Positions 211 to 21,008 of a DNA stretch of 64,000 nucleotides are shown one piece after another. This DNA comes from Robiginitalea marina (GTDB lineage: Bacteria; Bacteroidota; Bacteroidia; Flavobacteriales; Flavobacteriaceae), in assembly GCF_024006985.1 (NCBI RefSeq), contig NZ_JAMXIB010000001.1, forward strand, positions 62,001 to 126,000. Reading direction: 5' to 3'. The notes under the pieces were generated by a model. That model made no database searches. It saw nothing but the letters and a program-made list of their open reading frames with translations, and was not told the origin of the DNA. Position numbers and translations under genes: made by a program. Every line of letters begins with the position of its first letter. Position 1 is the stretch's first letter.

Positions 211-264
211 GGTGGTGCGTCTTGTAAATTGTATAAATTTCAGAAGAAGTCGGCACAAATGCAC

Positions 265-276
265 TGACCTGCGTCA
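265..276. promoter_or_regulatory. Crp/Fnr-like box, archease/acs intergenic region
   Basis: TGACCTGCGTCA (perfect palindrome CTGAC-N4-GTCAG at 264-277) lies between divergent archease and acs. Its centre (270.5) is 33 bp from a weak minus-strand -7-like element GAAATTTA (234-241) serving archease, and 55 bp (33 plus about two helical turns) from the acs -7 element at 322-329. The same TGA-N6-TCA core recurs at four other places in the window. Confidence 0.5.
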
Positions 277-321
277 GCGGGATCCCGGAAAAGGGGGTGC
301 CCGGGGTTCTTTTTCTTTTCC

Positions 322-329
322 TATATTTA
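322..329 (+). promoter_or_regulatory. putative -7 element of acs
   Basis: TATATTTA followed by G matches the Bacteroidota -7 consensus TAnnTTTG with one change and lies about 53 bp before the acs ATG. The same TATATTTAG string precedes two other genes here (25275, 28915). Confidence 0.45.
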
Positions 330-381
330 GTTCCCCGAGCAGCCGGGCAGGGTCCTGGCAAAAGAAATTGACGGAAACCCT

Positions 382-2289
382 ATGAGCAATTACCACATCA
401 AGCACCTGGAGGAATACTTCCAGGTTTACCGCAAATCGGTCCGCGACCCCGAGGCGTTTTGGGAAGAAATCGCGGAAGAGCATTTCAGCTGGAGGAAGAA
501 ATGGGACCGCGTCCTTCGGTGGGATTTCAGCAAACCCGAAGTGGCCTGGTTTGAAGGGGCCCGGCTGAACATCACCGAGAACTGCCTGGACCGTCACCTG
601 GCGACACAGGGGGAAAAGACCGCCATTTTGTTCGAACCCAACGACCCAGGGGAACAGGCGCAACATATCACCTACCGGCAGCTCCATGAGCGGGTGTGCC
701 GCATGGCCAATGTCTTGAAGGAGCAGGGTATTTCCAAAGGAGACCGGGTGTGCATCTATTTGCCCATGATCCCTGAGCTGGCCGTGGCAGTGCTGGCCTG
801 TGCACGCCTGGGGGCCATTCACTCGGTGGTCTTTGCCGGGTTCTCTTCCAACGCCCTGGCCACGCGGATCAACGATTGCCAGTGTAAAATGGTTATTACC
901 TCCGATGGCTCAATCCGCGGGTCAAAAACCCTCGACCTGAAGGCGATTGTAGATGCAGCCCTGGAAAGTTGCCCCGGGGTCGAAAGGGTGCTTCTGGTAA
1001 AACGCACAGGGGGGGAGGTTACCCTGGTCCCCGGAAGGGATACCTGGCTGCAACCCCTGCTGGACGGGGCTTCCCCGGCCTGCGAAGCGGAGGTCATGGA
1101 CGCGGAAGACCCCCTCTTTATCCTGTATACCTCGGGCTCCACCGGCAAACCCAAGGGGATGGTCCATACCTGTGGCGGCTATATGGTATACACCGCCTAT
1201 ACGTTTAAAAATATCTTCCAGTATCGCGATGGGGATGTCTATTGGTGCACGGCCGACATCGGCTGGATTACCGGCCACTCCTACATCGTCTATGGCCCCC
1301 TGGCCAACGGGGCCACCACCGTCCTTTTCGAAGGGGTGCCCACCTACCCGGACCACGGGCGGTTTTGGAAGGTGGTGGAAAAGCACCGGGTCACCCAGTT
1401 CTATACGGCCCCAACGGCCATCCGGGCCCTGGCCCGTGAAAGCCTCGAATATGTGGAGCAGTACGACCTTTCTTCCCTGAAGGTCCTCGGGTCGGTGGGG
1501 GAGCCCATCAACGAGGAGGCCTGGCACTGGTACAACAACAACGTGGGCAAGGGGAAGAGCCCCATCGTGGATACCTGGTGGCAGACGGAAACCGGGGGGA
1601 TCATGATCAGCCCCATCCCGTTTGTGACCCCAACCACGCCTACCTACGCCACCCTGCCCTTTATCGGGGTGCAGCCTGCCCTGATGGACGATGAGGGCAA
1701 TGAAATAAAGGGCAATCAGGTTTCCGGGCGGCTATGCATCAAATTCCCCTGGCCTTCCATGGCCCGTACCATCTGGGGCGACCACCAGCGGTACCACGAC
1801 ACGTATTTTTCCACCTTCAAAAACAATTATTTCACCGGTGACGGCGCCCTGCGGGATGCCGTGGGATACTACCGGATTACCGGGCGGGTAGATGACGTCA
1901 TCATCGTTTCGGGCCATAACCTGGGCACGGCACCCATAGAGGATTCCATCAACGAACACCCGGCCGTGGCCGAGTCGGCCATTGTTGGCTTCCCCCACGA
2001 GATCAAGGGAAACGCGTTGTACGGTTTTGTGATTTTGAAGGAAACCGGGGAGGGGAGGGACCGCGAAAACCTGCGCCGCGAGATCAACCAGCAGATCACC
2101 GAACAGATCGGCCCTATTGCCAAACTCGATAAAATCCAGTTCGTGCCGGGCCTGCCAAAAACCCGGAGCGGGAAAATCATGCGCCGGATCCTGCGCAAAA
2201 TCGCCTGCAGGGATACCGCCGACCTGGGCGACATCAGCACCCTGCTCAACCCGGAGGTCGTGCAGGAGATCATGGACGAAAGCCTTTAG
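382..2289 (+). CDS. acs: acetyl-CoA synthetase (AMP-forming)
   Basis: Acetyl-CoA synthetase activates acetate with ATP to acetyl-AMP and then acetyl-CoA in the cytoplasm. The 635-residue protein has the family's usual length and order: ACAS N-terminal domain with the NVAWFEGARLN-like region (AWFEGARLNITENCLD), AMP-binding loop YTSGSTGKPKG near residue 250, the DIGWITGHSYIVYGPL and WWQTETGG signatures, FTGDGA, GRVDDVI hinge, and the C-terminal KTRSGKIMRRILR segment carrying the acetylatable Lys. It stands alone between divergent archease and a convergent small gene. The protein is closer to acetyl- than to propionyl-CoA synthetase by overall pattern, but substrate was not tested. Confidence 0.95.
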   Translation: MSNYHIKHLEEYFQVYRKSVRDPEAFWEEIAEEHFSWRKKWDRVLRWDFSKPEVAWFEGARLNITENCLDRHLATQGEKTAILFEPNDPGEQAQHITYRQLHERVCRMANVLKEQGISKGDRVCIYLPMIPELAVAVLACARLGAIHSVVFAGFSSNALATRINDCQCKMVITSDGSIRGSKTLDLKAIVDAALESCPGVERVLLVKRTGGEVTLVPGRDTWLQPLLDGASPACEAEVMDAEDPLFILYTSGSTGKPKGMVHTCGGYMVYTAYTFKNIFQYRDGDVYWCTADIGWITGHSYIVYGPLANGATTVLFEGVPTYPDHGRFWKVVEKHRVTQFYTAPTAIRALARESLEYVEQYDLSSLKVLGSVGEPINEEAWHWYNNNVGKGKSPIVDTWWQTETGGIMISPIPFVTPTTPTYATLPFIGVQPALMDDEGNEIKGNQVSGRLCIKFPWPSMARTIWGDHQRYHDTYFSTFKNNYFTGDGALRDAVGYYRITGRVDDVIIVSGHNLGTAPIEDSINEHPAVAESAIVGFPHEIKGNALYGFVILKETGEGRDRENLRREINQQITEQIGPIAKLDKIQFVPGLPKTRSGKIMRRILRKIACRDTADLGDISTLLNPEVVQEIMDESL

Positions 2290-2307
2290 GTTTAAGGGGT
2301 TTCAGGC

Positions 2308-2709
2308 TCAGGGGTCAATATTCCAGCGCCGGTAAACGGACCGCAGGAATTCCCCATAGATTTCCTCGTGCATGGTATATTGCTCAGGGGTCAGGATTTT
2401 CCGGATTTCCGATTCCTGTTTGGTAAGGTATTCCTTTAATTTGCCTTTGAACTGTTCGGGGGTCCATTCCTGGTCCCTGTCGTCAAGACGGGCCATTTTT
2501 ACCGCATAGTATGTCAGGATACTCTGGTACCGCGCCTCGGTTTCCTCGGAAAGCCCCATTTTTTGAAGGCCTTCATGATACCAAAGCTGCAGGTTGTCTT
2601 TTTCCTCCTGGGTAAAGATTTGGACTTTGACCTCGTTTTCCGGTTCCTGCTGCGCGCTTAAGGGGGCAAAGCCAATTAAGAATAACGCGGCCGATATTAG
2701 GTGTTTCAT
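2308..2709 (-). CDS. small secreted helical protein, unknown function
   Basis: The start at 2709 gives 133 residues opening with a clear signal peptide, MKHLISAALFLIGFAPLSAQ; a longer reading from 2733 would put eight residues ahead of this signal and is less likely. The mature part is charged and probably all-helical, with segments such as YHEGLQKMGLSEETEARYQS, LTKQESEIRKILTPEQ and an aromatic, basic C-terminus (SVYRRWNIDP). The KILTPEQ segment recalls the LTxxQ motif of Spy/CpxP-like periplasmic proteins, but the resemblance is thin. It ends 18 bp from the acs stop (convergent). I do not recognise a specific family. Confidence 0.7.
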   Translation of the reverse strand: MKHLISAALFLIGFAPLSAQQEPENEVKVQIFTQEEKDNLQLWYHEGLQKMGLSEETEARYQSILTYYAVKMARLDDRDQEWTPEQFKGKLKEYLTKQESEIRKILTPEQYTMHEEIYGEFLRSVYRRWNIDP

Positions 2710-2831
2710 GGAATACATGTTTATATCCTGCACTAACGCATACCGATCCCTCTTGGTATGCCCGCGCTTCGAAATTTAAAGTCCCCTGGCGTTTGCCTGA
2801 AGAATTTTAGGCCTGATTTTTAGGTTAATCG

Positions 2832-2839
2832 TATATTTG
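2832..2839 (+). promoter_or_regulatory. -7 element upstream of the tRNA-Arg array
   Basis: TATATTTG is an exact TAnnTTTG match 69 bp before the first tRNA-like copy. The leader that follows contains two GGGCCC hexamers with CTGGT/ACCAG between them (about 2870-2895) and may fold. Confidence 0.5.
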
Positions 2840-2907
2840 CCCCGCCTTTGCACGCACTGGGCCCTTAGGCTGGTGAGTTCCCGACCAGGGGCCCTGGCAC
2901 AACATAA

Positions 2908-2966
2908 GGTCGCGTAGCTCAGCTGGATAGCGCATCCCGCCTTTGGCGGGACGGTCCCGGGTTCGA
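2908..2966 (+). pseudogene. truncated tRNA-Arg-like copy 1
   Basis: This copy keeps the exact 5' acceptor strand, D arm and variable-region sequence of the intact tRNA-Arg at 3063, but the D stem has GCGC instead of GAGC (one mismatch) and the anticodon arm is replaced by TCCCGCC-TTT-GGCGGGA, a 7-bp stem with a 3-nt loop. After the T-loop GGTTCGAGT the sequence runs into AT-rich DNA, so the 3' T-stem strand and the 3' acceptor strand are missing. It cannot fold as a complete tRNA. Confidence 0.75.
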
Positions 2967-2984
2967 GTTAAACATTTAAATATT

Positions 2985-3044
2985 GGTCGCGTAGCTCAGC
3001 TGGATAGCGCATCCCGCCTTTGGCGGGACGGTCCCAGGTTCGGG
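2985..3044 (+). pseudogene. truncated tRNA-Arg-like copy 2
   Basis: This is a second tandem copy 77 bp after the first. It has the same altered D stem and the same TCCCGCC-TTT-GGCGGGA arm, but its T region reads CCCAGGTTCGGGT, again without the matching 3' strands. The linkers after copies 1 and 2 are related AT-rich strings (AACATTTAAATATT and AGCATTTAAAATGTT). Period to the intact gene is 78 bp. Confidence 0.75.
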
Positions 3045-3062
3045 TGAAGCATTTAAAATGTT

Positions 3063-3136
3063 GGTCGCGTAGCTCAGCTGGATAGAGCATCTGCCTTCTA
3101 AGCAGACGGTCCCAGGTTCGAATCCTGGCGCGATCA
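3063..3136 (+). tRNA. tRNA-Arg (anticodon UCU)
   Basis: A complete cloverleaf is visible: acceptor GGTCGCG/CGCGATC with one G-U pair, D stem GCTC/GAGC, anticodon stem TCTGC/GCAGA with loop CTTCTAA (anticodon TCT at 3097-3099, T33 present), T stem CCAGG/CCTGG with loop TTCGAAT, and discriminator A. The CCA end is not encoded. It decodes AGA/AGG arginine codons. It is the only intact member of a three-copy tandem array. Confidence 0.97.
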
Positions 3137-3149
3137 CTTAAAGCGCATA

Positions 3150-3178
3150 GCCCCGCAACCAGTGTTGCGGGGCTTTTT
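3150..3178 (+). terminator. rho-independent terminator of tRNA-Arg
   Basis: GCCCCGCAA, a six-base loop and TTGCGGGGC form a 9-bp stem followed by TTTTT, 14 bp after the tRNA. Confidence 0.9.
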
Positions 3179-3582
3179 GCTTTCCAAAGAACCGCGAGCT
3201 TGCTCGCAAGGTTCGAAGGGAAGCAAAAAGCCGCAAGGCCCCAGGGCCTTGCGGGCTATGCATTTTCAGGCGGGATTGCCTTCAGGATCACCGAAGGTAA
3301 TCCTGGTTTAAGCTTGCTTTTGCGAGGGTTTGAAGAAGCAAAAAGCCGCAAGGCCCCAGGGCCTTGCGGGCTATGCATTTTCAGGCGGGATTGCTTTCAG
3401 GATCACCGAAGGTAATCCTGGTTGAAGCTCGCTTGAGCGGATCGCGGGAAAGCAAAAAGCTGCAAGGCCAAAGGTGTTTTGGGGAGATAAGACCCGCGGT
3501 TCCAGGACCATTTATGATTTTGGTCATAGGACTTTCTGGAAGAATTCGGGAACTTGCATGTCAATTCTTGATCTTTCCTGGC
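3179..3582. repeat. intergenic region with 115-bp tandem repeats
   Basis: This 404-bp gene-free stretch contains 2.2 direct copies of an approximately 115-bp unit starting at 3221, 3336 and 3450 (partial). Nearly the first 90 bases of units 1 and 2 agree. Each unit begins with GCAAAAAGCC and carries the hairpin GCAAGGCCC/GGGCCTTGC followed by GGCTATGC: this is the tRNA terminator layout (GCATAGCC...GGCTTTTTGC) in reverse orientation. A second hairpin, CAGGATcACC-GAA-GGTaATCCTG, follows in each unit. A GCGAGC-TT-GCTCGC hairpin lies near 3194. The hydrogenase promoter region is at the right end. Confidence 0.7.
3515..3526. promoter_or_regulatory. Crp/Fnr-like box upstream of hoxF
   Basis: TATGA-TTTTGG-TCATA (3513-3528) is an inverted repeat with the TGA-N6-TCA core. 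Its centre lies about 62 bp before the hoxF ATG, as at the other sites of this window. At the expected -7 position there is only a weak match (CTTG at 3553-3556), which would fit an activator-dependent promoter. Confidence 0.5.
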
Positions 3583-5349
3583 ATGATCAGTCCCTCCACT
3601 ACTTTTTTCCGACATGAACCCCGGCGAAACCAGCTGGTGAATGAATTATGGAAAGCGCAGCAGCGCGACGGCCACATTACCGAACAGACCATGGAAGCAT
3701 TGTCCAGGGACCTGGACATCTCCCTGATCGAAATACAGGGTGTGGTTTCGTTCTACCATTTCTTCCATACCCGTCCCACGGCCAGGCACGTCATCTACCT
3801 TAACAACAGCATTATTTCCAAAATCAAGGGATACGAAAGGATCCGGGAGGCCCTGGAGCGGGAAACCGGCTCACGGTTCAACACCAAGGATCGCACCGAT
3901 ACATTTGCCCTGTTCGAGACTCCCTGCATTGGCCTTAGCGACCAGGAACCCGCTGCCCTCATCGACTTCCACCCTTTCACCAACCTGAATGTGATGAAAG
4001 TGCGCGAAATAATCGCTGCCCTGAAGGACGGGAAGGAAGCCGCAGATATCTGTGACCAGCCCGCTGACCACATCCGGTACCTGCCCCCGAACAACCATAC
4101 CATTTTCTTCAGGCCCTATACGGCCGGGGAAGGCCTCGGCAGGGCCATGGTCCTCAGTCCCGGGGAAGTGATAAAGATTGTAAAGACCTCGGAACTCTCG
4201 GGCAGGGGTGGGGCGTTTTACCCGACCTGGATCAAGTGGGACGGCTGCAGGAAACAAAAAGCCACCCCCAAGTATGTGGTCTGCAATGCGGACGAGGGGG
4301 AACCCGGGACCTTCAAAGACCGGGTATTGCTGGACAGGGAACCGGGCTCCGTGCTGGAGGGCATGATCATTGCCGGCTATGCCATTGGCGCGAAATACGG
4401 CATCATCTACTTGCGGGCGGAATACCGGTGGTTGCTCAGGAAACTGGAGGCCACCATCCAGCAATTTTACGACCAGGGCCTGTTGGGACGCGCCATCCGG
4501 GGAAACCCTGACTTCGATTTTGACATCCGCATACAGCTTGGGGCCGGCTCCTATGTTTGTGGCGAGGAAACCGCGCTCCTGGAATCCATGGAAGGCAAAA
4601 GGGGCGAACCCCGCACCAAGTGGTACTTTCCCGTGGAACGGGGTTACCTGCAAAAGCCGACCATCATCAACAATGTGGAGACCTTTGCGGCCGTGGCCCG
4701 GATGATGGAAATGGGGATCAACAACTATTTGAACCGGGGTATCCCGGGCTCTCCGGGTACCAAACTCATCAGTCTTTCCGGGGATGTGCGGAAACCGGGC
4801 ATCTACGAGATCGAGTGGGGGATGACCATCGCCGAGCTCCTCGGACACGCCGGGGCGGAGGACCCGGCTTACATTCAGCTGAGCGGACCCTCCGGGGAGT
4901 GTGTCAGCATGAACCAGAAACACCGCAGGATCTCCATGCGCGACCTCCTGTCCACCCAGGATATCCGATGTGGAGGGTCCTTTATGGTGCTGAACCGGCA
5001 CCGCGACATTATGACGATTCTTTTGAATTTCTCCGAGTTTTTCCTGAAGGAGTCCTGCGGGATATGTACCCCGTGCCGTGCCGGGAATTACATCATCCAC
5101 AAAAAGCTGCAAAAGATGGCTAATGGCCTGGCCACCCAGGCGGATGTAGAGGAAATGCGCCAGTGGTGCCACATCATGAAGGAAACCAGCCGTTGCGGAC
5201 TGGGCAAAACGGCCTATAACACCCCCCTTATGGCCATAAATGAATTTTCGGACTATTTCAGCGAAAAACTGGAAGGTGCGGGAAATGGCATGAACCTGAA
5301 ATTTAACATGGACGAAGCGATCAGTGACTATGAAAAATACAAGGTCTGA
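3583..5349 (+). CDS. hoxF: NAD-reducing [NiFe] hydrogenase, HoxF diaphorase subunit
   Basis: HoxF carries FMN and exchanges electrons with NAD(H) in the soluble bidirectional hydrogenase. The ATG at 3583 gives 588 residues, near the length of Cupriavidus HoxF; an in-frame extension upstream would translate the repeats and is rejected. Residues 1-165 are a NuoE-like domain, and 166-588 are NuoF-like. Visible motifs are GRGGAFYPT (207-215, FMN/NADH loop, usually GRGGAGFPT), CNADEGEPGTFKDR, GAGSYVCGEETALL (320-333) and the [4Fe-4S] ligands C492, C495, C498 in SCGICTPCRAG plus C538. Of the four NuoE [2Fe-2S] cysteines only C115 remains, so that domain probably holds no cluster. The gene overlaps hoxUY by 20 bp. 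Confidence 0.93.
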   Translation: MISPSTTFFRHEPRRNQLVNELWKAQQRDGHITEQTMEALSRDLDISLIEIQGVVSFYHFFHTRPTARHVIYLNNSIISKIKGYERIREALERETGSRFNTKDRTDTFALFETPCIGLSDQEPAALIDFHPFTNLNVMKVREIIAALKDGKEAADICDQPADHIRYLPPNNHTIFFRPYTAGEGLGRAMVLSPGEVIKIVKTSELSGRGGAFYPTWIKWDGCRKQKATPKYVVCNADEGEPGTFKDRVLLDREPGSVLEGMIIAGYAIGAKYGIIYLRAEYRWLLRKLEATIQQFYDQGLLGRAIRGNPDFDFDIRIQLGAGSYVCGEETALLESMEGKRGEPRTKWYFPVERGYLQKPTIINNVETFAAVARMMEMGINNYLNRGIPGSPGTKLISLSGDVRKPGIYEIEWGMTIAELLGHAGAEDPAYIQLSGPSGECVSMNQKHRRISMRDLLSTQDIRCGGSFMVLNRHRDIMTILLNFSEFFLKESCGICTPCRAGNYIIHKKLQKMANGLATQADVEEMRQWCHIMKETSRCGLGKTAYNTPLMAINEFSDYFSEKLEGAGNGMNLKFNMDEAISDYEKYKV

Positions 5350-6616
5350 AAAGCGGGTTACGATCACCATAGACGGGAAGCCCTATCAGGCGGCGGAAGG
5401 CCGGAACCTGGTAGACGCGGCCAAGGAGGCGGGGGTATTTATCCCTTCCCTATGCTACTTCAAACACTTGGACCCCCCCCTGGGTACCTGCAGGGCCTGT
5501 ACCTGCAAGGTAAACGGCCGCAACGTACCGGCCTGTATGCAGCGGGTGGAGGAAGGCATGGCCGTGGAGGTGAACACCCCGGAACTTATCGATATCCGTA
5601 AGGCCCTGGTGGAAATGATGTTTGCGGAGGGTAACCACTTCTGCCCCTCCTGTGTGAAAAGCGGGAATTGCGACCTGCAGCACATGGGGTATGAACTCGG
5701 GATCACCCATATGCGGTTCCCCCACCTGTTCAGGGACCGGCACACCGACTACCAGTCCCGCCGCATGGTACTTGAGAACAACCGTTGCATCAAGTGTCGC
5801 AGGTGCGTGGAGGAGGTCTTCACGGACCAGGGCAAAAGGGTGTTCATGTACCAGAACCGGGGGATAGAAACCCTGGTGGGGATCGACCACGAGCAGGAAG
5901 CCCTGCTGACGGAAGCCCAGGCCGAGGCGGCCATGAACCTGTGCCCTACCGGGGCCATTGTGGTCAGGGGAAAACGCGTGGCGAAGCCTTTTGGCCTCAG
6001 GAGCTTTGACCAGCAGTCCGAACAGGAGGACTACGGCATCCGCTGGTCTGCAAACGGCGACCGCAGTCCCCGCGAGAAAAAGATGGTAGCTACGGTTTCC
6101 CTGGCCGGCTGTTTTGGCTGCCACATGTCCCTGTTGGATATCGATGAGGAAATCCTGGACCTGGTTGACCTGGTCGAATTCCACAAATCCCCCCTGACCG
6201 ACATCAAGCGGTTCACCCAGCGGTGCGACCTTGGCATTGTGGAAGGGGGATGCTGCAATACCGAGAACATCGAAACCCTAAGGGAGTTTAGGGAGAATTG
6301 CGACATCCTGGTTGCCGTTGGGGAATGCGCCATCTGGGGCGGGCTGCCCGCCATGCGGAATACAATCCCCCTGGGGGAATGCCTGGAGGAGGCATTCATC
6401 AATGCCCAGACCAACGATGAGGGGGAGGGACGGGTGCCTTATCACGAGGACCTGCCCAAACTATTGAACCGCGTTTATGCCTGCAACGAGATCGTCAAGA
6501 TCGATTACCTCATCCCCGGCTGCCCGCCCTCGGCGAGCCACCTTTGGAAGGTGATCCGCAATATCCTCTGGGGAGAGGAGTTTTCGGTCCTTTACCACGA
6601 GTTCAAATATGATTAG
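5330..6616 (+). CDS. hoxUY: fused HoxU-HoxY (diaphorase Fe-S subunit joined to hydrogenase small subunit)
   Basis: A single 428-residue frame encodes two normally separate proteins. Residues 1-215 are HoxU-like, with a plant-type [2Fe-2S] set (C42, C54, C57, C69), the EGNHFCPSC...C motif (H103, C105, C108, C114) and a further [4Fe-4S] set (C153, C156, C159, C205). A linker of about 35 residues leads to HoxY (about 250-428), the hydrogenase small subunit, with proximal-cluster ligands C261 and C264 in GCFGCHMS, C332 in GECAIWGG and C398 in PGCPP. The ATG at 5330 is preferred over GTG 5324. There is no stop or start between the two halves, so one chain would carry electrons from the NiFe site to HoxF. 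Confidence 0.93.
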   Translation: MKNTRSEKRVTITIDGKPYQAAEGRNLVDAAKEAGVFIPSLCYFKHLDPPLGTCRACTCKVNGRNVPACMQRVEEGMAVEVNTPELIDIRKALVEMMFAEGNHFCPSCVKSGNCDLQHMGYELGITHMRFPHLFRDRHTDYQSRRMVLENNRCIKCRRCVEEVFTDQGKRVFMYQNRGIETLVGIDHEQEALLTEAQAEAAMNLCPTGAIVVRGKRVAKPFGLRSFDQQSEQEDYGIRWSANGDRSPREKKMVATVSLAGCFGCHMSLLDIDEEILDLVDLVEFHKSPLTDIKRFTQRCDLGIVEGGCCNTENIETLREFRENCDILVAVGECAIWGGLPAMRNTIPLGECLEEAFINAQTNDEGEGRVPYHEDLPKLLNRVYACNEIVKIDYLIPGCPPSASHLWKVIRNILWGEEFSVLYHEFKYD

Positions 6617-6626
6617 AACCTGAACC

Positions 6627-8078
6627 ATGAGCAAAAAAATCATTATAGACCCGGTTACCCGTGTGGAAGGACACGGCCGGGTTACCATACACCTGGACGA
6701 TGCCGGCAAGGTGGAAAAGACCTACTTTCACATCGTTGAATTCAGGGGCTTCGAACGTTTTATCCAGGGACACCCCTACTGGGAAGTGCCCGTACTGGTT
6801 CAGCGGCTTTGCGGCATCTGCCCGGTGAGCCACCACCTGGCGGCATCCAAGGCCATCGACCAGCTTGCGGGCATAGACCCGGAAGCGTTGCCGGGGCCGG
6901 CCAATGCCCTGAGGAGGCTGCTGCACTATGCACAGATCTTCCAGTCCCATGCGCTGCATTTCTTTTACCTGGCCTCCCCCGACCTGCTCTATGGGGTGGA
7001 TGCCCCCGAATTGAAGCGCAACGTCATGGCCGTGGCCATGGACAACAAGGAACTGGCGCGAAAAGGGATCCTGATGCGAAAATTCGGGCAGGAATTGATA
7101 CAGGCCATAGCGGGTAAGAAGATACACGGCCTCACCTGCCTGCCCGGGGGGGTACACAAAGCCCTCACCCTGGAGGAAATAACCTATTTCCTGGATGGAA
7201 AATCCATCCCGGACGTGGACACCATGATCGCCTGGTCCCTGGAGATCCTCGATTTCATCAAAGAGTATCACGCCAAGCACCAGTCGTTTATGGACCACTT
7301 CGCCAGCCTGCCTTCCGGACACCTGGGCATGGTTTCCGAAAAAGGGGACCTGGAATTGTACCACGGGGTGATGCGGGCGATTGACGCCGAGGGAAGGGTC
7401 ACCCTGAAGGACGTATCCACAGACTCCTACCAGGACTATTTTTCGGAGCACGTGGAACGCTGGTCCTATATGAAGTTCCCATACCTGAAACACCTGGGGC
7501 TTGAGAAGGGATGGAACCGTGTGGGGCCACTGGCGCGGATCAATATCTGCGACCGGATCCCCACCCCTCTGGCAGAGCGCGAACGACACTTGTTTTTCGC
7601 CCTTAGCGGAGTATCGGTAAACAACCATACCATGTATACCCACTGGGCACGCCTGATTGAGCTGCTTCACTGTGCCGAGCTCATCAAGGACCTCCTGCAC
7701 AACCCGGAAATCCTCGGCACCAACCTGGTCCGGGAAGGGACCCCCAGGAAGGAGGGTATCGGCATCCTGGAAGCGCCCAGGGGCACCCTGATCCACCATT
7801 ACGAAGTGGACGACAACGGCATGATCACACGTTGCAACCTGATTGTTTCCACCACCCACAACAACGAGGCTATGAACCGTACCGTGAACCGGGTGGCCGG
7901 GGAGGTAATCTCCGAGCAGGGCACCATCACGGAAGGTATGCTAAACCAGGTGGAGGTAGCTATCAGGGCCTATGACCCCTGCCTGAGCTGTGCCACCCAG
8001 GCCCTTGGCAAAATGCCGCTTCAGGTAGAGTTGTACGGGCCGGGAAATGAATTGCTGAAAACGGTATCCTCCTCATGA
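6627..8078 (+). CDS. hoxH: [NiFe] hydrogenase large subunit HoxH
   Basis: HoxH holds the NiFe(CN)2CO centre that splits or forms H2. The 483-residue protein has the N-terminal RVEGHG region and the L1 motif RLCGICPVSHH (C62, C65, H69). The C-terminal L2 motif reads YDPCLSCATQALG (C452, C455), followed by a tail that HoxW would remove. Families of this type normally have His in the position of Q458 (DPCxxCxxH), and cleavage normally follows that residue, so Gln is unusual. Its start is 10 bp after hoxUY, and its last four bases overlap the hoxW start (ATGA). No hyp maturation genes are in the window. Confidence 0.94.
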   Translation: MSKKIIIDPVTRVEGHGRVTIHLDDAGKVEKTYFHIVEFRGFERFIQGHPYWEVPVLVQRLCGICPVSHHLAASKAIDQLAGIDPEALPGPANALRRLLHYAQIFQSHALHFFYLASPDLLYGVDAPELKRNVMAVAMDNKELARKGILMRKFGQELIQAIAGKKIHGLTCLPGGVHKALTLEEITYFLDGKSIPDVDTMIAWSLEILDFIKEYHAKHQSFMDHFASLPSGHLGMVSEKGDLELYHGVMRAIDAEGRVTLKDVSTDSYQDYFSEHVERWSYMKFPYLKHLGLEKGWNRVGPLARINICDRIPTPLAERERHLFFALSGVSVNNHTMYTHWARLIELLHCAELIKDLLHNPEILGTNLVREGTPRKEGIGILEAPRGTLIHHYEVDDNGMITRCNLIVSTTHNNEAMNRTVNRVAGEVISEQGTITEGMLNQVEVAIRAYDPCLSCATQALGKMPLQVELYGPGNELLKTVSSS

Positions 8079-8509
8079 AGTCTATTCTCCTGGTCGGGAT
8101 AGGGAATACGGGCCGTGGCGATGACGGTCTCGGCTGGGCCTTTGCAGACCGGCTCCTGGAAGACGAACGCTTTGAGGTTGTACGGCGCTACCAGCTTCAG
8201 GTAGAGGATGCTGAACTGATTTCCCGGTATAAACAGGTGTGGTTTGTCGACGCCTCCCACAAGGCAGTCAGGAATGGTTTTTCAAGTGAACGGCTACGGG
8301 GACAGGGGCAATTCTCCTTTACCACCCATTCCCTGCACCCGGAGGCAGTGCTGCAGTTGTGCCACCAATTGTACGGGCAAAGGCCGCAAACCCAACTGCT
8401 TGGCATCAGCGGGGAGGACTTTGAGCTGGGTCACGGGCTTTCAGAAGCCGCCCGGGAACGACTGGAAAAAGCGCATGCCCATTTTATGGAAGAGGTCGGG
8501 TCAGATTAA
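8075..8509 (+). CDS. hoxW: hydrogenase maturation endopeptidase (HoxW/HycI family)
   Basis: This 144-residue protease is expected to trim the C-terminus of HoxH after nickel insertion. The N-terminal GIGNTGRGDDGLGW matches the family GxGNxxRxDDG motif that supplies a nickel-binding acid. VEDAELI (second acid position), VWFVDAS and a HSLHPEAV segment also fit. The start overlaps the hoxH stop, so translational coupling is likely, and it closes the hox operon. It converges with a minus-strand gene 25 bp away. Confidence 0.9.
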   Translation: MKSILLVGIGNTGRGDDGLGWAFADRLLEDERFEVVRRYQLQVEDAELISRYKQVWFVDASHKAVRNGFSSERLRGQGQFSFTTHSLHPEAVLQLCHQLYGQRPQTQLLGISGEDFELGHGLSEAARERLEKAHAHFMEEVGSD

Positions 8510-8533
8510 ACATTTCCCTGGCTGCTTATGGGT

Positions 8534-12178: not shown

Positions 12179-12181
12179 ACA

Positions 12182-12838
12182 ATGAGCATTACAGGAAAAA
12201 ATGTTACTTATGAGGAACTCGCGCCCCTGCTGAAGACCGGGGACATCGTTCTGTTCCACGGAGACAGCCAGTTCCAGGAGGTTATCGATGCACTTACCGG
12301 CAGCCCCTATAACCATATGGCTATGGTGGTTCTCAGCAAAGACCTGGGTGGGCCTCCATCCATGGCGCCGATCATGCTCTGGGAATCCACGCCCTACGCC
12401 ATTACCGAAGACCAGGAATTACACCGGCCCAAGGCGGGCCCTACCCTGGTGGATCTGGAAACCCGCATCAACCAGGAGGTGGAGCGGGGCATGTTTTTCA
12501 GGTTTGTCTTCAGGCAGTTGTCGCGTCCCTTGCAGGATGTAAATTTCCGACCCCTTAAAGGGGCCATCCAGCACGCCTATCCCGACACCTTCCCGACAGA
12601 CAAATGGTTTTTTATCAAGGGGATCATCGGAAGGATCTTCAACCGGGAAGTCCGGCAACCGACCTTCTTCTGTTCAGAACTGATCGCCTACACCTACCAG
12701 AAGATGGGGTTGCTCTCCACCCAGCATCCGCCCGACTATTACTGGCCCAAGGATTTTTCTATTAAAGGACGCCTGCCCCTGCGCGACAATGAAATGTTGG
12801 GCGAAAATTTACTCCTTGAATTACAGGTGAAAGAATGA
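12182..12838 (+). CDS. YiiX/YebB-like permuted papain-like hydrolase
   Basis: The 218-residue protein fits the circularly permuted NlpC/P60 (peptidase C92, YiiX-like) family: GDIVLFHGDSQFQEVIDALT, then the catalytic-His segment SPYNHMAMVV near residue 42, and the catalytic-Cys segment FFCSELIAYTYQKMGL near residue 162. Family members are predicted amidases or peptidases. There is no obvious signal peptide in this reading, so a cytoplasmic location is suggested. It lies between a haem protein and an adenylate cyclase, with an ATGA overlap to the latter, so the three are likely co-translated. Confidence 0.82.
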   Translation: MSITGKNVTYEELAPLLKTGDIVLFHGDSQFQEVIDALTGSPYNHMAMVVLSKDLGGPPSMAPIMLWESTPYAITEDQELHRPKAGPTLVDLETRINQEVERGMFFRFVFRQLSRPLQDVNFRPLKGAIQHAYPDTFPTDKWFFIKGIIGRIFNREVRQPTFFCSELIAYTYQKMGLLSTQHPPDYYWPKDFSIKGRLPLRDNEMLGENLLLELQVKE

Positions 12839-14988
12839 CCCGGGACCCCCAAATCTCCAACCGCCGCCTGCTGAGGATCTTCATGGTCGCCCTGATCGGC
12901 GTGGCGATTTTTATGGTGTGGAAATCCGTCCACAAATTTCCCGGCGGCCTTTATGCCGTGGCCGGTCAGCTTTCCCTGTCGGGACAGAAGCTTCAAAACG
13001 AAGCCGTGCCCCTGGACGGGGAATGGAAATTTGCCTGGAATGCCCTCCACAGCCCGGAATCCTTTCCCACAGGCCAGGCAGAAGTCATGACGTTGCCCCG
13101 CATCTGGAATGGCTTCACCTATGGGGATGATGAGCTGCCTGCCCACGGGTATGGCACTTACCAGCTGGAGGTCGCCATGCAACCCGGTGGGAAGGATGGC
13201 AGCATGGCCCTTTATATCCCCTTCATCCATTCCTCATACGCCCTCTATCTGCAAGACCAGCTTGTGGCCTCCGATGGCACTGTGGGGCGTTCCCCGGGGG
13301 AATATACCCCCAGTGCGCGCACGCAGATCATCCCCTTCACGCCCCAGGGCGATACGCTCAAGGTCACCCTGCAGGTGGCCAATTTTGCCTATTCGATGGG
13401 GGGGGTCTGGCAAAGCCTTCGTATGGGTACGCGGGAGATGGTGCAGAAGCACTACGACCGGCAACTCGCCTTTGACCTGTTTACCATCGGCGGGTTGTTC
13501 TTGATGAGCATTTACCACATTGCCCTGTTTTTCATGCGCCCGGGAATACGGTCCAACCTGTATTTTGGCCTGCTCTGTTTCTTTTTGTCCGTCAAAAACC
13601 TGTTCACCGGGGTTGTTTTTTTCTATACCCTGTGGCCTGGTGCCTCCTACGAAATCGGGCTGAAACTCATCCACATCTCGATTTTTGCCAGTGTGGCCCT
13701 GCTCTGGCTCTTCCTACGGGAATTGTTCGAAAATGACTTCCCCCGGGTCGTTAGCAAATCCCTCCTGGTCCTTTGCGGGTTGGGGATCGCGGTGACCCTG
13801 GTTTTTCCTTCCCCGGTTTACAGCGCGCTCATGTTTGGCTTTTGGATCGTCAGCGGCGTGGTCATTCTGCTGATCCTGAGAGGGATTTATCGTGCGGTCA
13901 TCAGGAAGAAAGAGGGGGCCCAGCTGATCCTGGCCGGTATTGTGTGCTTTATGCTCACGGTGGGTCATGACCTGGCCATTGATGCCAGGCTTATCCAGAG
14001 CGTCTATCTGGCAGGGGCCGGTTTTTTCCTCTTTATCTTCAGCCAATCCCTGCTTTTGGCCGTGAAATTCACGAATTCCTTCCAGAACGTCGAGAACCTC
14101 ACCGAGGACCTGATCAACACCAATACCTCCTTCAGCCGTTTTGTGCCGGATGAATACCTGTCTTACCTGAACAAGAAATCCATCCTGGATGTGGAACTCG
14201 GCGACAGTGTGCAGCGGGAAATGACGGTGTTTTTCTCCGATATCCGATCCTTTACGTCCCTGTCGGAGTCTATGTCCCCGAAGACCAACTTTGCCTTTAT
14301 CAATGATTACCTGGGTCATGTGGTCGATTTTATCCACTCCAAAGGGGGGTTGGTAAACCAGTACCTGGGGGATGGGGTGCTGGCCCTCTTTACGAAAAAC
14401 CCGGTAAATGCGGTACAGGCGGCGGTCCAGATACAGGTCGGGATGTCGGAGGTCCGCACCCTTGGTGGATTCGAGCTCAAGGCCCCCATCCAAACCGGTA
14501 TCGGGATCCACACCGGCCCTTTAATCCTCGGCATGATGGGCACGGACCGGCGGCTTACGCCCAGTGTCATCTCCGATACCGTAAATACCGCCTCGCGCCT
14601 TGAAGGGTTAACAAAGTTTTTCGGGGCACAGATCATTGTAAGCGAGCCGGCCCTGATGCAAATCACCGACCTGTCGCAATTTGAGTATCGCTTCCTGGGC
14701 AAGGTAACGGTGAAGGGAAAGCAGGATGCCCTGAAAATATATGAAATCATGGACGGCCTGCCCGAAGCGGTCAGGGAGCTGAAGACCTTTACCAAAAGGG
14801 GGTTTGAAGCCGGGCTGGAGTTGTACTTCAAAAAGGACTTTTCAGAAGCCATGGCCCGGTTTAATGAAGTGCTTTCTGTGAACCCCGACGACCTTGCCTC
14901 ACGAATTTATTTCCAGAATTCCCAGCAGTATATGAATGATGGGGTGTATGAGAGTTGGGAAGGCGCGTTGAAGATGGAGCTCAAATAA
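12835..14988 (+). CDS. membrane adenylate cyclase with 7TM-DISM sensor
   Basis: The 717-residue protein has one N-terminal membrane anchor, an extracytoplasmic sensory domain (about 45-210, with LDGEWKFAWN and GYGTYQLEV as in 7TMR-DISM extracellular modules), a block of about seven membrane helices (215-410), and a class III nucleotide cyclase domain (about 460-640). Metal-binding Asp residues are visible in FFSDIRSFTSL and YLGDGVLALF, and the catalytic Asn/Arg in SDTVNTASRLEG. The usual adenine-selecting Lys before GD is Gln (NQYLGD), so ATP specificity is probable but not assured. A short C-terminal tail of about 70 residues has a TPR-like look. Product cAMP could feed Crp-type regulators. 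Confidence 0.85.
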   Translation: MTRDPQISNRRLLRIFMVALIGVAIFMVWKSVHKFPGGLYAVAGQLSLSGQKLQNEAVPLDGEWKFAWNALHSPESFPTGQAEVMTLPRIWNGFTYGDDELPAHGYGTYQLEVAMQPGGKDGSMALYIPFIHSSYALYLQDQLVASDGTVGRSPGEYTPSARTQIIPFTPQGDTLKVTLQVANFAYSMGGVWQSLRMGTREMVQKHYDRQLAFDLFTIGGLFLMSIYHIALFFMRPGIRSNLYFGLLCFFLSVKNLFTGVVFFYTLWPGASYEIGLKLIHISIFASVALLWLFLRELFENDFPRVVSKSLLVLCGLGIAVTLVFPSPVYSALMFGFWIVSGVVILLILRGIYRAVIRKKEGAQLILAGIVCFMLTVGHDLAIDARLIQSVYLAGAGFFLFIFSQSLLLAVKFTNSFQNVENLTEDLINTNTSFSRFVPDEYLSYLNKKSILDVELGDSVQREMTVFFSDIRSFTSLSESMSPKTNFAFINDYLGHVVDFIHSKGGLVNQYLGDGVLALFTKNPVNAVQAAVQIQVGMSEVRTLGGFELKAPIQTGIGIHTGPLILGMMGTDRRLTPSVISDTVNTASRLEGLTKFFGAQIIVSEPALMQITDLSQFEYRFLGKVTVKGKQDALKIYEIMDGLPEAVRELKTFTKRGFEAGLELYFKKDFSEAMARFNEVLSVNPDDLASRIYFQNSQQYMNDGVYESWEGALKMELK

Positions 14989-15079
14989 GGGGCAGGCGGG
15001 GGTTGCGGTCAGACGCTGTTACCGGAAGCGTTTTCAAACCGCTCAATGAAAAGCGAAAAAGTGAATTTGGAGTCAGGTT

Positions 15080-15556: not shown

Positions 15557-15719
15557 CGTCCCGTGTAGGGATCGGGGTTTGCCATTCGGCGACCACACCG
15601 GTTTTCAGGGAAAACCAGGGGGAGGAATCCTAAAGGCCGTTGAAAAACCCAGGGCTCCCATAGACTCGGCCAGGGCGGTGACCCCAGGTGATATTTCGTT
15701 GACATTTAGTGGTTTATAC

Positions 15720-15731
15720 TGATCAATGTCA
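15720..15731. promoter_or_regulatory. Crp/Fnr-like box upstream of the nitroreductase
   Basis: TGATCAATGTCA, extended on the right by TAGG exactly as at the hoxF box. Its centre is 60 bp before the ATG and exactly 33 bp before the centre of TACTTTTA (15755-15762), a TAnnTTTG-like -7 element. Confidence 0.55.
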
Positions 15732-15754
15732 TAGGTGAATTCCCTCCACAGGAC

Positions 15755-15762
15755 TACTTTTA
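15755..15762 (+). promoter_or_regulatory. -7 element of the Acg-like nitroreductase gene
   Basis: TACTTTTA fits TAnnTTTG with one change and implies a leader of about 16-18 bases before the ATG at 15786. This argues against a GTG start at 15735. Confidence 0.5.
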
Positions 15763-15785
15763 CGGACACCTGTAAACATCTTTCC

Positions 15786-16760
15786 ATGAAACTAGAATGG
15801 AATTGCCAAAAACTGGTCGCCTTCGGGGGCATGGCCCCTTCCGGCCACAATACCCAGCCATGGACGTTTGTGTGCGGGGAAAACAGCCTGCAGATCCACC
15901 CCGATTTCAGCCGTTCCCTGCCGATAGTAGACCCCGATAACCACGCGCTCTATATCAGCCTGGGCTGTGCTGCAGAAAACATAATCCTTGCTGCCAGGGG
16001 GGAAGGACTCCGGCCCGAACTATCCCTTGAAAAGGATTCGGCAGGGGTTGTATTTATCCACATCCGCCTGTCAGAAGCAGACCCGATACGCTACGACCCC
16101 CTGCTGGAATTTGTCGAATCGAGGCAGGTGGCCCGCAATGCATACGAAGACCGGGCTGTCCCCGCCAGGGACCTGAAGGAACTGGTCGACGCCTCCCGAA
16201 TGGATGGTGTGGAAGTCCGCACCCTTACCTCAGCGGAAAAGATAGAGGCCATGGAGCCCCTGATCATTGAAGGGAGTAACTTGCAGTTTGAGAATGAAGA
16301 TTTTGTCGGGGAACTGGTGTCCTGGATCCGGTTTTCCAAAGGGGAGGCCCGTAAAAAGCAGGATGGTATCTGGCATGCCAGTATGGGTATGCCCGCCACG
16401 GGAAGGTGCCTCGGGGAATTGATTATGAAAAAGTTCGTGTCTGCCAAAAGCGAAGCGAAACGCTGGAAAGGGCTCCTGCGCGCCTCGGCGGGGTTGGCGG
16501 TTTTCATCGCCGAAAAGGACGATATCGCCCACTGGGTGAAAGTAGGCAGGGCCTTTCAGCGGTTTGGCCTTACCGCTACGCGACTTGGGATCCAACACGC
16601 CCATGTGAACATGCCCTGCGAGGAACCTGCCGTGCGCAAAAAGCTGGCGGCAGCCCTGGGACTCGACCGGGGACACCCCCTGTTGTTGGTGCGTTTCGGG
16701 TATTCCGAACCTATGCCGTATTCCTTCCGGCGGCCGGCTGCAGAGGTCCTCAGCGAATAA
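15786..16760 (+). CDS. Acg-family nitroreductase-like FMN protein
   Basis: From the ATG at 15786 the protein has 324 residues and matches the Acg/nitroreductase-like family: an N-terminal APSGHNTQPWTF substrate/FMN segment, then SLGCAAENIILAARGEGL, a middle part with RWKGLLRASAGLAVFIAEKD, and RAFQRFGLTATRLGIQHAHVNMPCEE near the C-terminus. Mycobacterial Acg proteins belong to a dormancy regulon; their chemistry is uncertain, with loss of typical NAD(P)H use. A Crp/Fnr-like box with ideal spacing suggests induction by low oxygen or redox stress. The downstream hairpin ends this transcript. Confidence 0.85.
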   Translation: MKLEWNCQKLVAFGGMAPSGHNTQPWTFVCGENSLQIHPDFSRSLPIVDPDNHALYISLGCAAENIILAARGEGLRPELSLEKDSAGVVFIHIRLSEADPIRYDPLLEFVESRQVARNAYEDRAVPARDLKELVDASRMDGVEVRTLTSAEKIEAMEPLIIEGSNLQFENEDFVGELVSWIRFSKGEARKKQDGIWHASMGMPATGRCLGELIMKKFVSAKSEAKRWKGLLRASAGLAVFIAEKDDIAHWVKVGRAFQRFGLTATRLGIQHAHVNMPCEEPAVRKKLAAALGLDRGHPLLLVRFGYSEPMPYSFRRPAAEVLSE

Positions 16761-16777
16761 CTCCGCAGCACACAAAA

Positions 16778-16803
16778 AAAACCCGCCACAGAAGGCGGGT
16801 TTT
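16778..16803. terminator. bidirectional rho-independent terminator
   Basis: AAA-ACCCGCC / GGCGGGT-TTT with a six-base loop sits between two convergent genes. A-run and T-run on the two sides allow use in both directions. Confidence 0.9.
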
Positions 16804-16846
16804 CCTTATTTGGCCCCAAAGCGGGCTATTCGGGCAGTCAATTCAA

Positions 16847-17404: not shown

Positions 17405-17433
17405 AAGGCAAGTGTTAATTAAGGTTTAAAGGA

Positions 17434-19833: not shown

Positions 19834-19896
19834 ATGCGGATTTAAGGGTGGTAATACGCGGGGGCCCCTGGGCGGGGACATAGAACAGGACGGTGG

Positions 19897-20211
19897 TTAA
19901 ACCAGTTCCAAGGCGTAGACAGGGGGTGGGCGGCAAAACAGGGCGCCTTCAAGGTGGACGGGGCAAAGGGCGGGCAGGGGTGCCTCGGCGGGATGCCCGG
20001 GCAGGGGAGCCTCAACCCTTACTTCGATGGCCTGGGCCAGGGGAGGGTGGAAAGGGGTTGATTCCAGGACCAGCGCATATTCGCACCACTCGCAGGCGGG
20101 GCCGTTTTCTTCATCGGCATGCAGGAGTCCATGCGATTCCATGCTTTTGGCCCCGAGAAAGGCCAAAAGGAGGAAGATGGAAGAAAAATAATGGAACCAC
20201 CGGGTACTCAT
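19897..20211 (-). CDS. small exported CxxC protein at the head of the TonB operon
   Basis: This 104-residue protein has one N-terminal hydrophobic helix (FHYFSSIFLLLAFLGA), then ESHGLLHADEENGPACEWCEYALVL with a CxxC pair next to His and acidic residues, and Pro-rich C-terminal segments with two further Cys (LCPVHLEGALFC). Similar small His/Cys proteins often precede TonB receptors in flavobacteria and may bind a transition metal such as zinc or copper; that role is inferred from motif and position. It ends 63 bp before the receptor start. A 9-bp inverted repeat lies 30-58 bp upstream of its ATG. Confidence 0.65.
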   Translation of the reverse strand: MSTRWFHYFSSIFLLLAFLGAKSMESHGLLHADEENGPACEWCEYALVLESTPFHPPLAQAIEVRVEAPLPGHPAEAPLPALCPVHLEGALFCRPPPVYALELV

Positions 20212-20240
20212 AGGGGCGAAATTACAATTTTAGCGTCTGG

Positions 20241-20269
20241 CCAAGTGTTAACGAAATGTGAACACTTGG
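20241..20269. promoter_or_regulatory. 29-bp palindrome, putative operator of the TonB operon
   Basis: CCAAGTGTT-N11-AACACTTGG is a perfect 9-bp inverted repeat between the end of the ArsC-like gene and the start of the TonB unit. No T-run follows on either strand, which argues against a terminator. Possible minus-strand -7 elements (TAAAATTG 20225-20232 or TAATTTCG 20217-20224) lie just downstream. Confidence 0.45.
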
Positions 20270-20273
20270 GATT

Positions 20274-20639
20274 TCAGATTTTAATGATGTCCGTCGGGGT
20301 TTCCACCAAAATAGTCAGGTCTCCCCGTAGCGCAATTGGTTGTTTCATGATCTCGGGGTGTTTTTTGATCATTTTGATCCAGTCTTCCGAGGAAAACTCA
20401 TGGGGCTCGAAGTGATTTTTATAGGTGGGGTGTTCCTGGTTGACCAGGTCCCTCACTTCCAGGCCGAGCCTTCCCGCCAGTTCGCTGATTTGGGTACCCG
20501 TCAGGGGGGTTTTCAGGAGGTCGATTTCCTGTACCGGAAGGCCCTCTGCCCGGGCATAGGCAATAGTTTGTCTGGCCCGGCTGGAATTCGAATTGTAATA
20601 CAGGGTGATCATTCGGTCTGAGGTGGCAATTTCTCCCAT
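20274..20639 (-). CDS. ArsC/Spx-like thioredoxin-fold protein lacking the catalytic cysteine
   Basis: About 121 residues from the ATG at 20639 (20645 is an alternative). The sequence ITLYYNSNSSRARQTIAYARAEGL, LKTPLTGTQISELAGRLGLEVRDLVN, and IMKQPIALRGDLTILVETP follow the ArsC-family layout, including the late xxRPI-like element as KQPIALRG. However, the site that holds the reactive Cys in arsenate reductases and the CxxC of Spx reads NSNSSRAR with no Cys, and the protein contains no cysteine at all. It is therefore not an arsenate reductase of known type; a binding or regulatory role is more plausible. It follows the small gene at 20661-20876 in a probable operon. Confidence 0.75.
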   Translation of the reverse strand: MGEIATSDRMITLYYNSNSSRARQTIAYARAEGLPVQEIDLLKTPLTGTQISELAGRLGLEVRDLVNQEHPTYKNHFEPHEFSSEDWIKMIKKHPEIMKQPIALRGDLTILVETPTDIIKI

Positions 20640-20660
20640 GGTCAATCGATTTTCGGAGGG

Positions 20661-20876
20661 TTAATCCCCTTTTTGATGTGTTTCAAGGTGGTGCCAAAGC
20701 AACTGCTTCAGGGAGGTGAGGTATTCCTGGAGGACACGGGTGTCAATTTGTGGGTGTTCGCTGACCGGGAGGGTAATCGGGTTCTCCCCCAGATACTGGT
20801 AGAGCTCCGGGTAATTGGTCTCGATGTTGCTGGTCAGCAGGGTAATGTCCTCCAGCAGGGTTTTCATATCCTTCAT
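20661..20876 (-). CDS. small conserved protein of the stress cluster
   Basis: The ATG at 20876 gives 71 residues, MKDMKTLLEDITLLTSNIET, with YPELYQYLGENPITLP and a C-terminal LTSLKQLLWHHLETH; a start at 20867 is also possible. It appears as a short helical cytoplasmic protein of the type often found beside universal stress proteins in Bacteroidota; the function is unknown to me. A minus-strand -7-like TACCTTCG (20903-20910) lies exactly 33 bp from the Crp/Fnr-like box centred at 20939.5. The start matches the ~60-bp rule seen at the other boxes. Confidence 0.65.
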   Translation of the reverse strand: MKDMKTLLEDITLLTSNIETNYPELYQYLGENPITLPVSEHPQIDTRVLQEYLTSLKQLLWHHLETHQKGD

Positions 20877-20902
20877 GACAGCTGGTTTTTGGGATCCAAC
20901 AA

Positions 20903-20910
20903 CGAAGGTA
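20903..20910 (-). promoter_or_regulatory. -7 element of the small-protein/ArsC-like operon
   Basis: On the minus strand the sequence reads TACCTTCG (TAnnTTTG with one change), 27 bp before the ATG at 20876. Confidence 0.45.
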
Positions 20911-20933
20911 GCGAGCACATGGCTAAAGGAAAA

Positions 20934-20945
20934 TGACCGGGGTCA
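20934..20945. promoter_or_regulatory. Crp/Fnr-like box 1 of the divergent stress promoters
   Basis: ATGACCGGGGTCA contains TGACC-N2-GGTCA. The centre is 33 bp from the minus-strand -7 element, so this box probably activates the leftward operon. It is 32 bp from box 2. Confidence 0.6.
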
Positions 20946-20965
20946 CTTTGCCGGGACAGCCCCGC

Positions 20966-20977
20966 TGACCCAGGTCA
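20966..20977. promoter_or_regulatory. Crp/Fnr-like box 2, upstream of the UspA gene
   Basis: TGACCCAGGTCA followed by TTTT. The centre is 33 bp from TACCTTTA (21001-21008), so it probably activates the rightward gene. Confidence 0.6.
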
Positions 20978-21000: not shown

Positions 21001-21008
21001 TACCTTTA
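21001..21008 (+). promoter_or_regulatory. -7 element of the UspA gene
   Basis: TACCTTTA followed by GG. It gives a leader of about 17-20 bases before the TTG start at 21031. Confidence 0.5.

Follow-up and report, generated by a model that had tools for sequence, protein, structure and literature searches.

Do five short palindromes of the form TGA-N6-TCA, standing upstream of genes as different as those of an archease, a hydrogenase, a nitroreductase-like enzyme, a small protein and a universal stress protein (Usp), constitute the operators of one regulon, and if so, what reads them? The question is raised by a 64-kb stretch of Robiginitalea marina DNA (positions 62001-126000 of contig C11 in the 3.25 Mb genome G000), hereafter the window, for which an original prediction had proposed a single low-oxygen or redox regulator of the Crp/Fnr type. 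Flavobacteria abound in seas and soils; they are commonly treated as aerobes, and, to our knowledge, their sensing of falling oxygen has been little described. Here, the boxes are quite probably operators of a class II Crp/Fnr-type activator, which would govern an oxygen-limitation regulon with two likely readers. From the box, its spacing, its conservation, the linkage of genes and the conservation of cysteines, all read from sequence, we infer DNA binding, activation and oxygen sensing. In the proposed mechanism, a dimer would bind MTGAY-N4-RTCAT at -41.5 and touch the Bacteroidota RNA polymerase at a TAnnTTTG -7 element located 23 nt downstream. Targets in the window would be (i) archease-rtcB, (ii) an Acg-type flavin mononucleotide (FMN) oxidoreductase, (iii) a small open reading frame (ORF) with the ArsC/Spx-like gene at 20274-20645 that comes after it, (iv) usp and, probably, (v) the NAD-linked hydrogenase; genome-wide, they would extend to the cbb3 oxidase, hemN, pyruvate/2-oxoacid:ferredoxin oxidoreductases, an uptake hydrogenase and several Usp genes. 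The likeliest readers would be an FNR-like protein of the cbb3 cluster and a receiver-Crp fusion, the latter under the control of a PAS histidine kinase.

The boxes lie exactly where they had been placed (Table 1) and, with a score model run on both strands of the window, face the genes to which they had been assigned. Computed from coordinates, the distance from box centre to start codon is 60.5 bp for the archease, 62.5 bp for the hoxF-like gene, 60.5 bp for the Acg-type nitroreductase, 63.5 bp for the 71-aa small ORF (its start being judged by eye) and 59.5 bp for usp. The fixed spacing to a -7-like element was recovered as exactly 23 bases from the box end for the elements at 15755, 21001 and 20903 and for the weak one before the archease; at the hoxF box, no good -7 element occurs at the 23-base spacing (GAACTTGC, score -4.9). 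The acs gene, also assigned to box 1, drops out of the class II regulon: acs starts about 112 bp away from the box, no -7 element occurs at gap 22-24 (best score -21.1, rank 100), and box 1 was rejected as a class II site for this gene. A -7 element TATATTTA at 322 would place the box near -63.5 from acs, i.e., in a class-I-like position.

Over the whole genome, TGA-N6-TCA-N23-TANNTTT has 33 matches, split 14 + 19 between the strands, vs 0 for the reversed pattern; they amount to 31 distinct boxes, two of which match both ways. When gaps of 9 to 37 were allowed and the first half was set to TGAT, gap 23 was found in 21 of 35 cases, gap 24 in 4, gap 25 in 2 and other gaps in 8. Columns left free by the search pattern proved constrained in the 31 matches outside the window, namely Y after TGA in 28 and R before TCA in all 31, while the flanking columns show A or C preceding the box in 28/31 and T following it in 23/31. 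The narrow consensus first proposed (TGACCNGGGTCA) thus gives way to the general form MTGAY-N4-RTCAT. As a regulon marker, TGACCNNGGTCA was ruled out: it has 13 exact sites genome-wide vs 2 in the reversed control, and by eye only four are intergenic, with one or two more at gene edges and the others inside genes.

The score model was trained on the 31 matches that lie elsewhere in the genome (29 distinct boxes); over the 64 kb of the window, the five boxes take the top five ranks, with scores of 31.7 (15720), 28.4 (20966), 16.3 (265), 15.3 (20934) and 13.2 (3515). The comparison with shuffled DNA that the original prediction had called for gave a divided answer, two boxes exceeding all 8 Markov shuffles and three not; since the top score per shuffle ran from 4.9 to 19.1, only the boxes at 15720 and 20966 are significant by score alone, and for the other three the case depends on position, orientation and, at the archease, conservation. 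The model itself uses the TGA...TCA core from which the boxes were first recognised, so independent evidence comes from the spacing, the -7 element and the Y/R columns. Against chance, the spacing geometry is decisive.

The same spacing fixes the place of the box in the promoter. According to PMC9723704, the -7 element of Flavobacterium psychrophilum is located at -12 to -5; with gap 23, the 12-nt box then falls at -47 to -36 and its centre at -41.5, so that a Crp/Fnr site near -41.5, as had been predicted from family knowledge, agrees with class II geometry.

Among related genomes, box and spacing are retained before usp and before the archease, as the original prediction had suggested they should be if the regulon were real. 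Before usp, the gap-23 box is found in all six genus relatives (L125-L130) whose best match exceeds 200 bits, five of them with the full TANNTTT and L129 with a single mismatch; over all 29 other loci fetched in the usp search, 14 have a gap-23 box when one mismatch among the five -7 letters is allowed and the box is no more than 125 bp from the match start. The archease gene is present in 4 of 9 other genus members, of which three kept the gap-23 box, with GAAATTTA (L179), TAAATTTG (L180) and TATCTTGC (L181) as -7 element; in L182, no box was seen near the gene. Next after the archease gene comes rtcB (PF01139, 557.8 bits), and with the box kept in three of four relatives the link to RNA repair, at first no more than a perhaps, has become stronger. 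For the Acg-type gene, no match was found in other genus members and, in 39 relatives, weak ones in one order-level genome only. For the hydrogenase subunit, searched in the same 39 relatives, the closest homolog is 42% identical (G270); no upstream box at the spacing was seen in the DNA scanned at 19 of 20 homolog loci, and the remaining locus has one poor box about 1400 bp off.

Across the phylum, TGA-N6-TCA-N23-TANNTTTG was searched in 247 genomes with the reversed pattern as control. The 27 genomes of the family, own genome included, gave 304 matches vs 27 in the control, all 27 exceeding it; three genomes from another family of the order gave 30 vs 2; 31 other genomes of the class gave 134 vs 23, with 27 above control; the remaining 186 genomes had 0 to 7 matches each.

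The genes that follow boxes elsewhere in the genome agree with a response to oxygen limitation. These comprise five Usp genes, hemN (an NCBIfam equivalog above cutoff), the small subunit of an uptake [NiFe] hydrogenase, a gene of pyruvate:ferredoxin-oxidoreductase type, a second 2-oxoacid:acceptor oxidoreductase, a ferredoxin, a cytochrome c, a DoxX protein and a bacterial release-factor-like protein. Another box, at gap 24, lies between ccoI and ccoNO of the cbb3 cluster. According to PMC9723704, cbb3 oxidase and haem-synthesis enzymes are up in F. psychrophilum under oxygen limitation, in agreement with the target functions here; neither fnr nor crp is mentioned in the passages concerned. 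With enrichment, fixed spacing, conservation and target functions, the predicted low-oxygen or redox class II regulon of the Crp/Fnr type is well supported.

What might read the box is suggested first by the cbb3 cluster. The genome has six PF00027 genes, one of which, coding for an FNR-like protein 88% identical to its Robiginitalea aurantiaca counterpart, lies within this cluster and adjoins a usp. In the best 80 of 166 related stretches in named genomes, taken as fnr-linked loci, a gap-23 TANNTTT box stands downstream of fnr in 76; upstream, a box lies at most 130 nt away in 67 of 80, with a spacing towards fnr of 23 in 62 of these 67; and the cbb3 promoter region has a box in 57/76. Towards ccoI, the box between fnr and ccoI has CAnnTTTG as its gap-23 8-mer in 59/67 loci, i.e., a -7 element lacking the first T is tolerated, which makes the weak archease element easier to accept. 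The gap histogram of the 80 loci counts 228 at gap 23, followed by 19 at gap 17; as a second spacing the latter was rejected, since the 10 of the 19 that were inspected either were T-rich overlaps next to gap-23 sites or lay in scattered places.

The FNR-like protein consists of a cyclic nucleotide (cNMP)-binding-like domain and a Crp-type helix-turn-helix (HTH), matched by PF00027, PF13545 and PF00325. In a PDB search, chains of an FNR type regulator came second (E 5e-23) after a Crp/Fnr family protein (1e-25), and on NCBIfam Fnr it scores 100.6 bits, below the cutoff of 228. Cys 7, 10, 56 and 109 are invariant in 81/81 aligned sequences. Of 21 further homologs (eight from the same family, the others, 35-42% identical, from outside it), 19 have all four cysteines; G210 and a separate paralogue of G088 do not. 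The cluster ligands of E. coli FNR are Cys 20, 23, 29 and 122. Cys 7, 10 and 109 align with cysteines of solved FNR structures that we take to be cluster ligands, so that three of the four are matched; an equivalent of Cys 29 is absent and Cys 56 is new. Since both the ligand set and the family cutoff fall short, the protein was not filed as FNR. We infer that Cys 56 may serve as the fourth ligand, and the protein is probably an iron-sulphur or thiol redox sensor acting via Cys 7, 10, 56 and 109.

A second candidate reader, encoded on contig C47, is the receiver-Crp fusion, composed of a receiver, a cNMP and an HTH_Crp_2 domain; the helix core G-x-A-[TS]-E-x-x-I-R is common to the seven fusions compared. 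Its possible part is suggested by four of 27 family genomes, in which no FNR-like ortholog was found at the level seen in the others. Boxes nonetheless exceed the control in each, with 14 vs 3 in G130, 21 vs 0 in G234, 21 vs 9 in G053 and 31 vs 15 in G088. In about 16 kb around the kinase/receiver-Crp pair lie 7 of the 14 matches of G130 and 7 of the 21 of G234, three of seven before Usp-like genes, and in G053 one of 21 stands directly beside the fusion gene. G088 has 5 of 31 within about 13 kb of the pair, including boxes before the kinase, ccoN and a Usp-like gene, whereby the pair stands in the cbb3 cluster; genes of these genomes were named by eye, save the kinases and the G088 fusion. 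A box also precedes the kinase gene in the window's genome and in G182. When the kinase PAS domains of G088 and G134 were searched, 13 of the 14 PDB sequences matched per search were FixL or DosP (labels of heme PAS sensor and yddU being taken as DosP). The haem-ligand His and distal Arg align in both, as well as in G130, G234 and G053; G182 has the His and lacks the Arg; the window's own kinase, a multi-PAS protein of 1249 aa from the first listed start, has neither in its first PAS. A FixL-like sensor is thus plausible for the relatives and not supported for the window's own genome. Near the receiver-Crp gene, at 30-49 kb of C47 (L021), an island of low-oxygen character was noted that includes ribonucleotide reductase (PF02867), Usp genes and phosphate acetyltransferase (PF01515), along with genes that by eye resemble deoC, nucleoside phosphorylase and acetate kinase.

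Because the FNR-like protein and the fusion both appear to read the box, the single regulator of the original prediction is probably wrong. A family-wide arrangement can be sketched, which we advance tentatively at somewhat short of even confidence: in Flavobacteriaceae, one operator of the oxygen-limitation regulon would serve two independent sensors. The first would be an FNR-like protein whose ligand set is rearranged to C-x2-C-x45-C-x52-C; the second, the receiver-Crp fusion, would be FixJ and FixK in one protein with a FixL-like haem-PAS kinase as its input, and in some lineages it would stand in place of the FNR-like gene, even within the cbb3 cluster.

Several observations weigh against the regulon as drawn here or against its two readers. 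Within the window, three of the five boxes score no higher than the best shuffled sites, and hoxF and the Acg-type gene have no usable orthologs for promoter comparison among the 39 relatives. Three genus members (L140, L144, L148), each with only a weak best Usp match, show no box. At the fnr loci, the downstream box is missing in 4/80 (one record ending at the gene) and the cbb3 box in 19/76 within the stretch scanned. Enrichment is uneven: G029 has only 2 matches vs 1 in the control with the TANNTTTG pattern; G218 is barely enriched with the looser TANNTTT (18 vs 15) and has 7 vs 1 with TANNTTTG; and it is with this looser pattern that the reversed controls of G053 and G088 run high. In the window's genome, some matches are internal to long ORFs (C11:332361, C33:295163). 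As targets, a GH3 glycosidase, MlaE, a ROK protein and an outer membrane protein are off-theme; box-downstream proteins without a family likewise show no obvious fit. The value of -41.5 is arithmetic on the F. psychrophilum map of the -7 element, not on the organism's own start sites. Lastly, the genome has three other Crp-type genes (L017, L018, L019), of which L018 is preceded by a box, about 54 bp ahead of the first start listed for it.

That the FNR-like protein is the sole reader, the fusion having a different site and lying near boxes through shared low-oxygen gene islands, is unlikely, though it is the most serious of the competing accounts. The flanking of the FNR-like gene by boxes in most of the 80 loci fits it, as do G142 (10 vs 0) and G218 (7 vs 1), which have boxes and an FNR-like gene with no second Crp-type match at E 1e-8; yet the four family genomes without an ortholog of that gene retain box and spacing, partly clustered round the fusion in three of them, the G088 fusion gene sits in the cbb3 cluster (genes by eye), and all seven fusions have the G-x-A-[TS]-E-x-x-I-R helix in common.

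Quite improbable is the proposal that another Crp-type protein, e.g., L018 on contig C1, reads the box and that the FNR-like gene and the fusion are mere targets. The helix PETVSR of L018 likewise has the E-xxx-R pattern, and the box before it, TGATCTGGATCA, has other outer bases; this linkage is nevertheless one case in this genome, compared with linkage to fnr in 76/80 loci. The box-like palindrome between the GH3 glycosidase gene and L018 (L028, C1 at about 76105), with its other outer bases, is perhaps a site of that paralogue. Another cNMP protein, L016 (C11 at about 179457), adjoins a two-way box and has CBS-like and nucleotidyltransferase-like regions, only the cNMP domain coming from the search and the rest being seen by eye. 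A box without any dedicated regulator, be it an extended part of the promoter or a product of chance composition, is scarcely credible: TGACC/GGTCA-like words are indeed common in the window (53 vs 23 expected with 2 mismatches, many inside genes) but fail to account for the reversed-pattern control, the sharp gap peak, the palindromic symmetry and the conservation upstream of orthologs.

The regulon would work like an FNR/FixK regulon. FNR of the E. coli type and ANR, FnrL or FixK resemble it by the Crp-fold protein, the TGA...TCA half sites and a centre at -41.5, and the contents of an FNR-type regulon, i.e., cbb3 oxidase, hemN, hydrogenase and Usp, are targets here as well. Compared with the FNR consensus, TTGAT-N4-ATCAA, the outer box base is here A or C instead of T, the Ser of the ExxSR helix is Ile, the third N-terminal cysteine is missing and the invariant Cys 56 is new, and the core promoter is of the Bacteroidota -7 type. 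In several relatives, the FixL-FixJ-FixK cascade of rhizobia has a parallel in a PAS kinase closest to the haem-PAS of FixL or DosP, a receiver and a Crp-type output near cbb3 genes. FixJ consists of a receiver and a LuxR-type HTH; the fusion departs from this architecture by its cNMP and HTH_Crp_2 domains, its receiver and Crp module thus standing in one protein as if FixJ and FixK were condensed, and the partner kinase of the own genome is without the haem-ligand His in its first PAS. In mycobacteria, hypoxia likewise controls Usp genes and an Acg-family oxidoreductase through the DosR regulon, whose regulator and DNA site are unrelated to those considered here. In the titles and abstract openings among the literature matches listed, no description was found of this regulon or of FixL with a receiver-Crp protein in Bacteroidota. 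A searchable box with an exact spacing provides a testable gene list, here 31 distinct boxes by the strict pattern, some inside genes; it ties archease-RtcB RNA repair and the Usp families to oxygen limitation, and it suggests a sensor input that could be swapped (FNR-like vs receiver-Crp) with operator and targets kept constant.

Table 1. Boxes, -7 elements and adjoining genes at the five proposed promoters (window positions).
Feature	Position	Strand	Basis
Archease, N-terminal part; remainder, then rtcB, beyond the window (L023)	1..210	-	PF01951, PF01139
Weak -7 element GAAATTTA, 23 nt from box 1	234..241	-	Score model and relatives
Box 1, TGACGCAGGTCA in archease direction	265..276	-	Score rank 3 of window
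Box 2, TGATTTTGGTCA	3515..3526	+	Strong box, score rank 5
Poor -7 element GAACTTGC for box 2	3550	+	Score model
Fused NuoE/HoxE-NuoF/HoxF-like diaphorase subunit	3583..5349	+	Family matches
HoxU/HoxY-like fusion, [NiFe] hydrogenase large subunit, maturation protease	5324..8509	+	Family matches
Box 3, TGATCAATGTCA, best site of window	15720..15731	+	Score rank 1
-7 element TACTTTTA, 23 nt from box 3	15755..15762	+	Score model
Acg-family FMN-binding oxidoreductase, nitroreductase fold	15786..16760	+	PF00881; NF047509, 265.3 bits (cutoff 199)
Small ORF, 71 aa by eye	20661..20876	-	Reading frame
-7 element TACCTTCG, 23 nt from box 4	20903..20910	-	Score model
Box 4, towards small ORF	20934..20945	-	Score rank 4
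Box 5, TGACCCAGGTCA	20966..20977	+	Score rank 2
-7 element TACCTTTA, 23 nt from box 5	21001..21008	+	Score model
Universal stress protein (Usp)	21031..21870	+	PF00582

Some further features of the window deserve mention. The first 62-63 residues of the small ORF gave no match in a family search. At 3583-8509, the hydrogenase is compact, with fused subunits (HoxE-HoxF-like and HoxU-HoxY-like), a large subunit and a maturation protease, and, its first subunit being at most 42% identical to anything in the 39 relatives, it was possibly acquired. Between the tRNA and the hydrogenase promoter, repeated hairpin-forming segments occupy 3171-3474, including two 105-nt direct copies that are 95% alike. 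Ahead of these, 2908-3135 holds three tandem tRNA-like copies spaced 77-78 nt, of which only the third has a gene call (3063-3137, tRNA-Arg, anticodon TCT); the first two are 95% alike and differ from the third in the 3' part. Further on, at 12835-14988, a 7TMR-DISM receptor is fused to a nucleotide cyclase domain, in a genome that has several cNMP-domain proteins.

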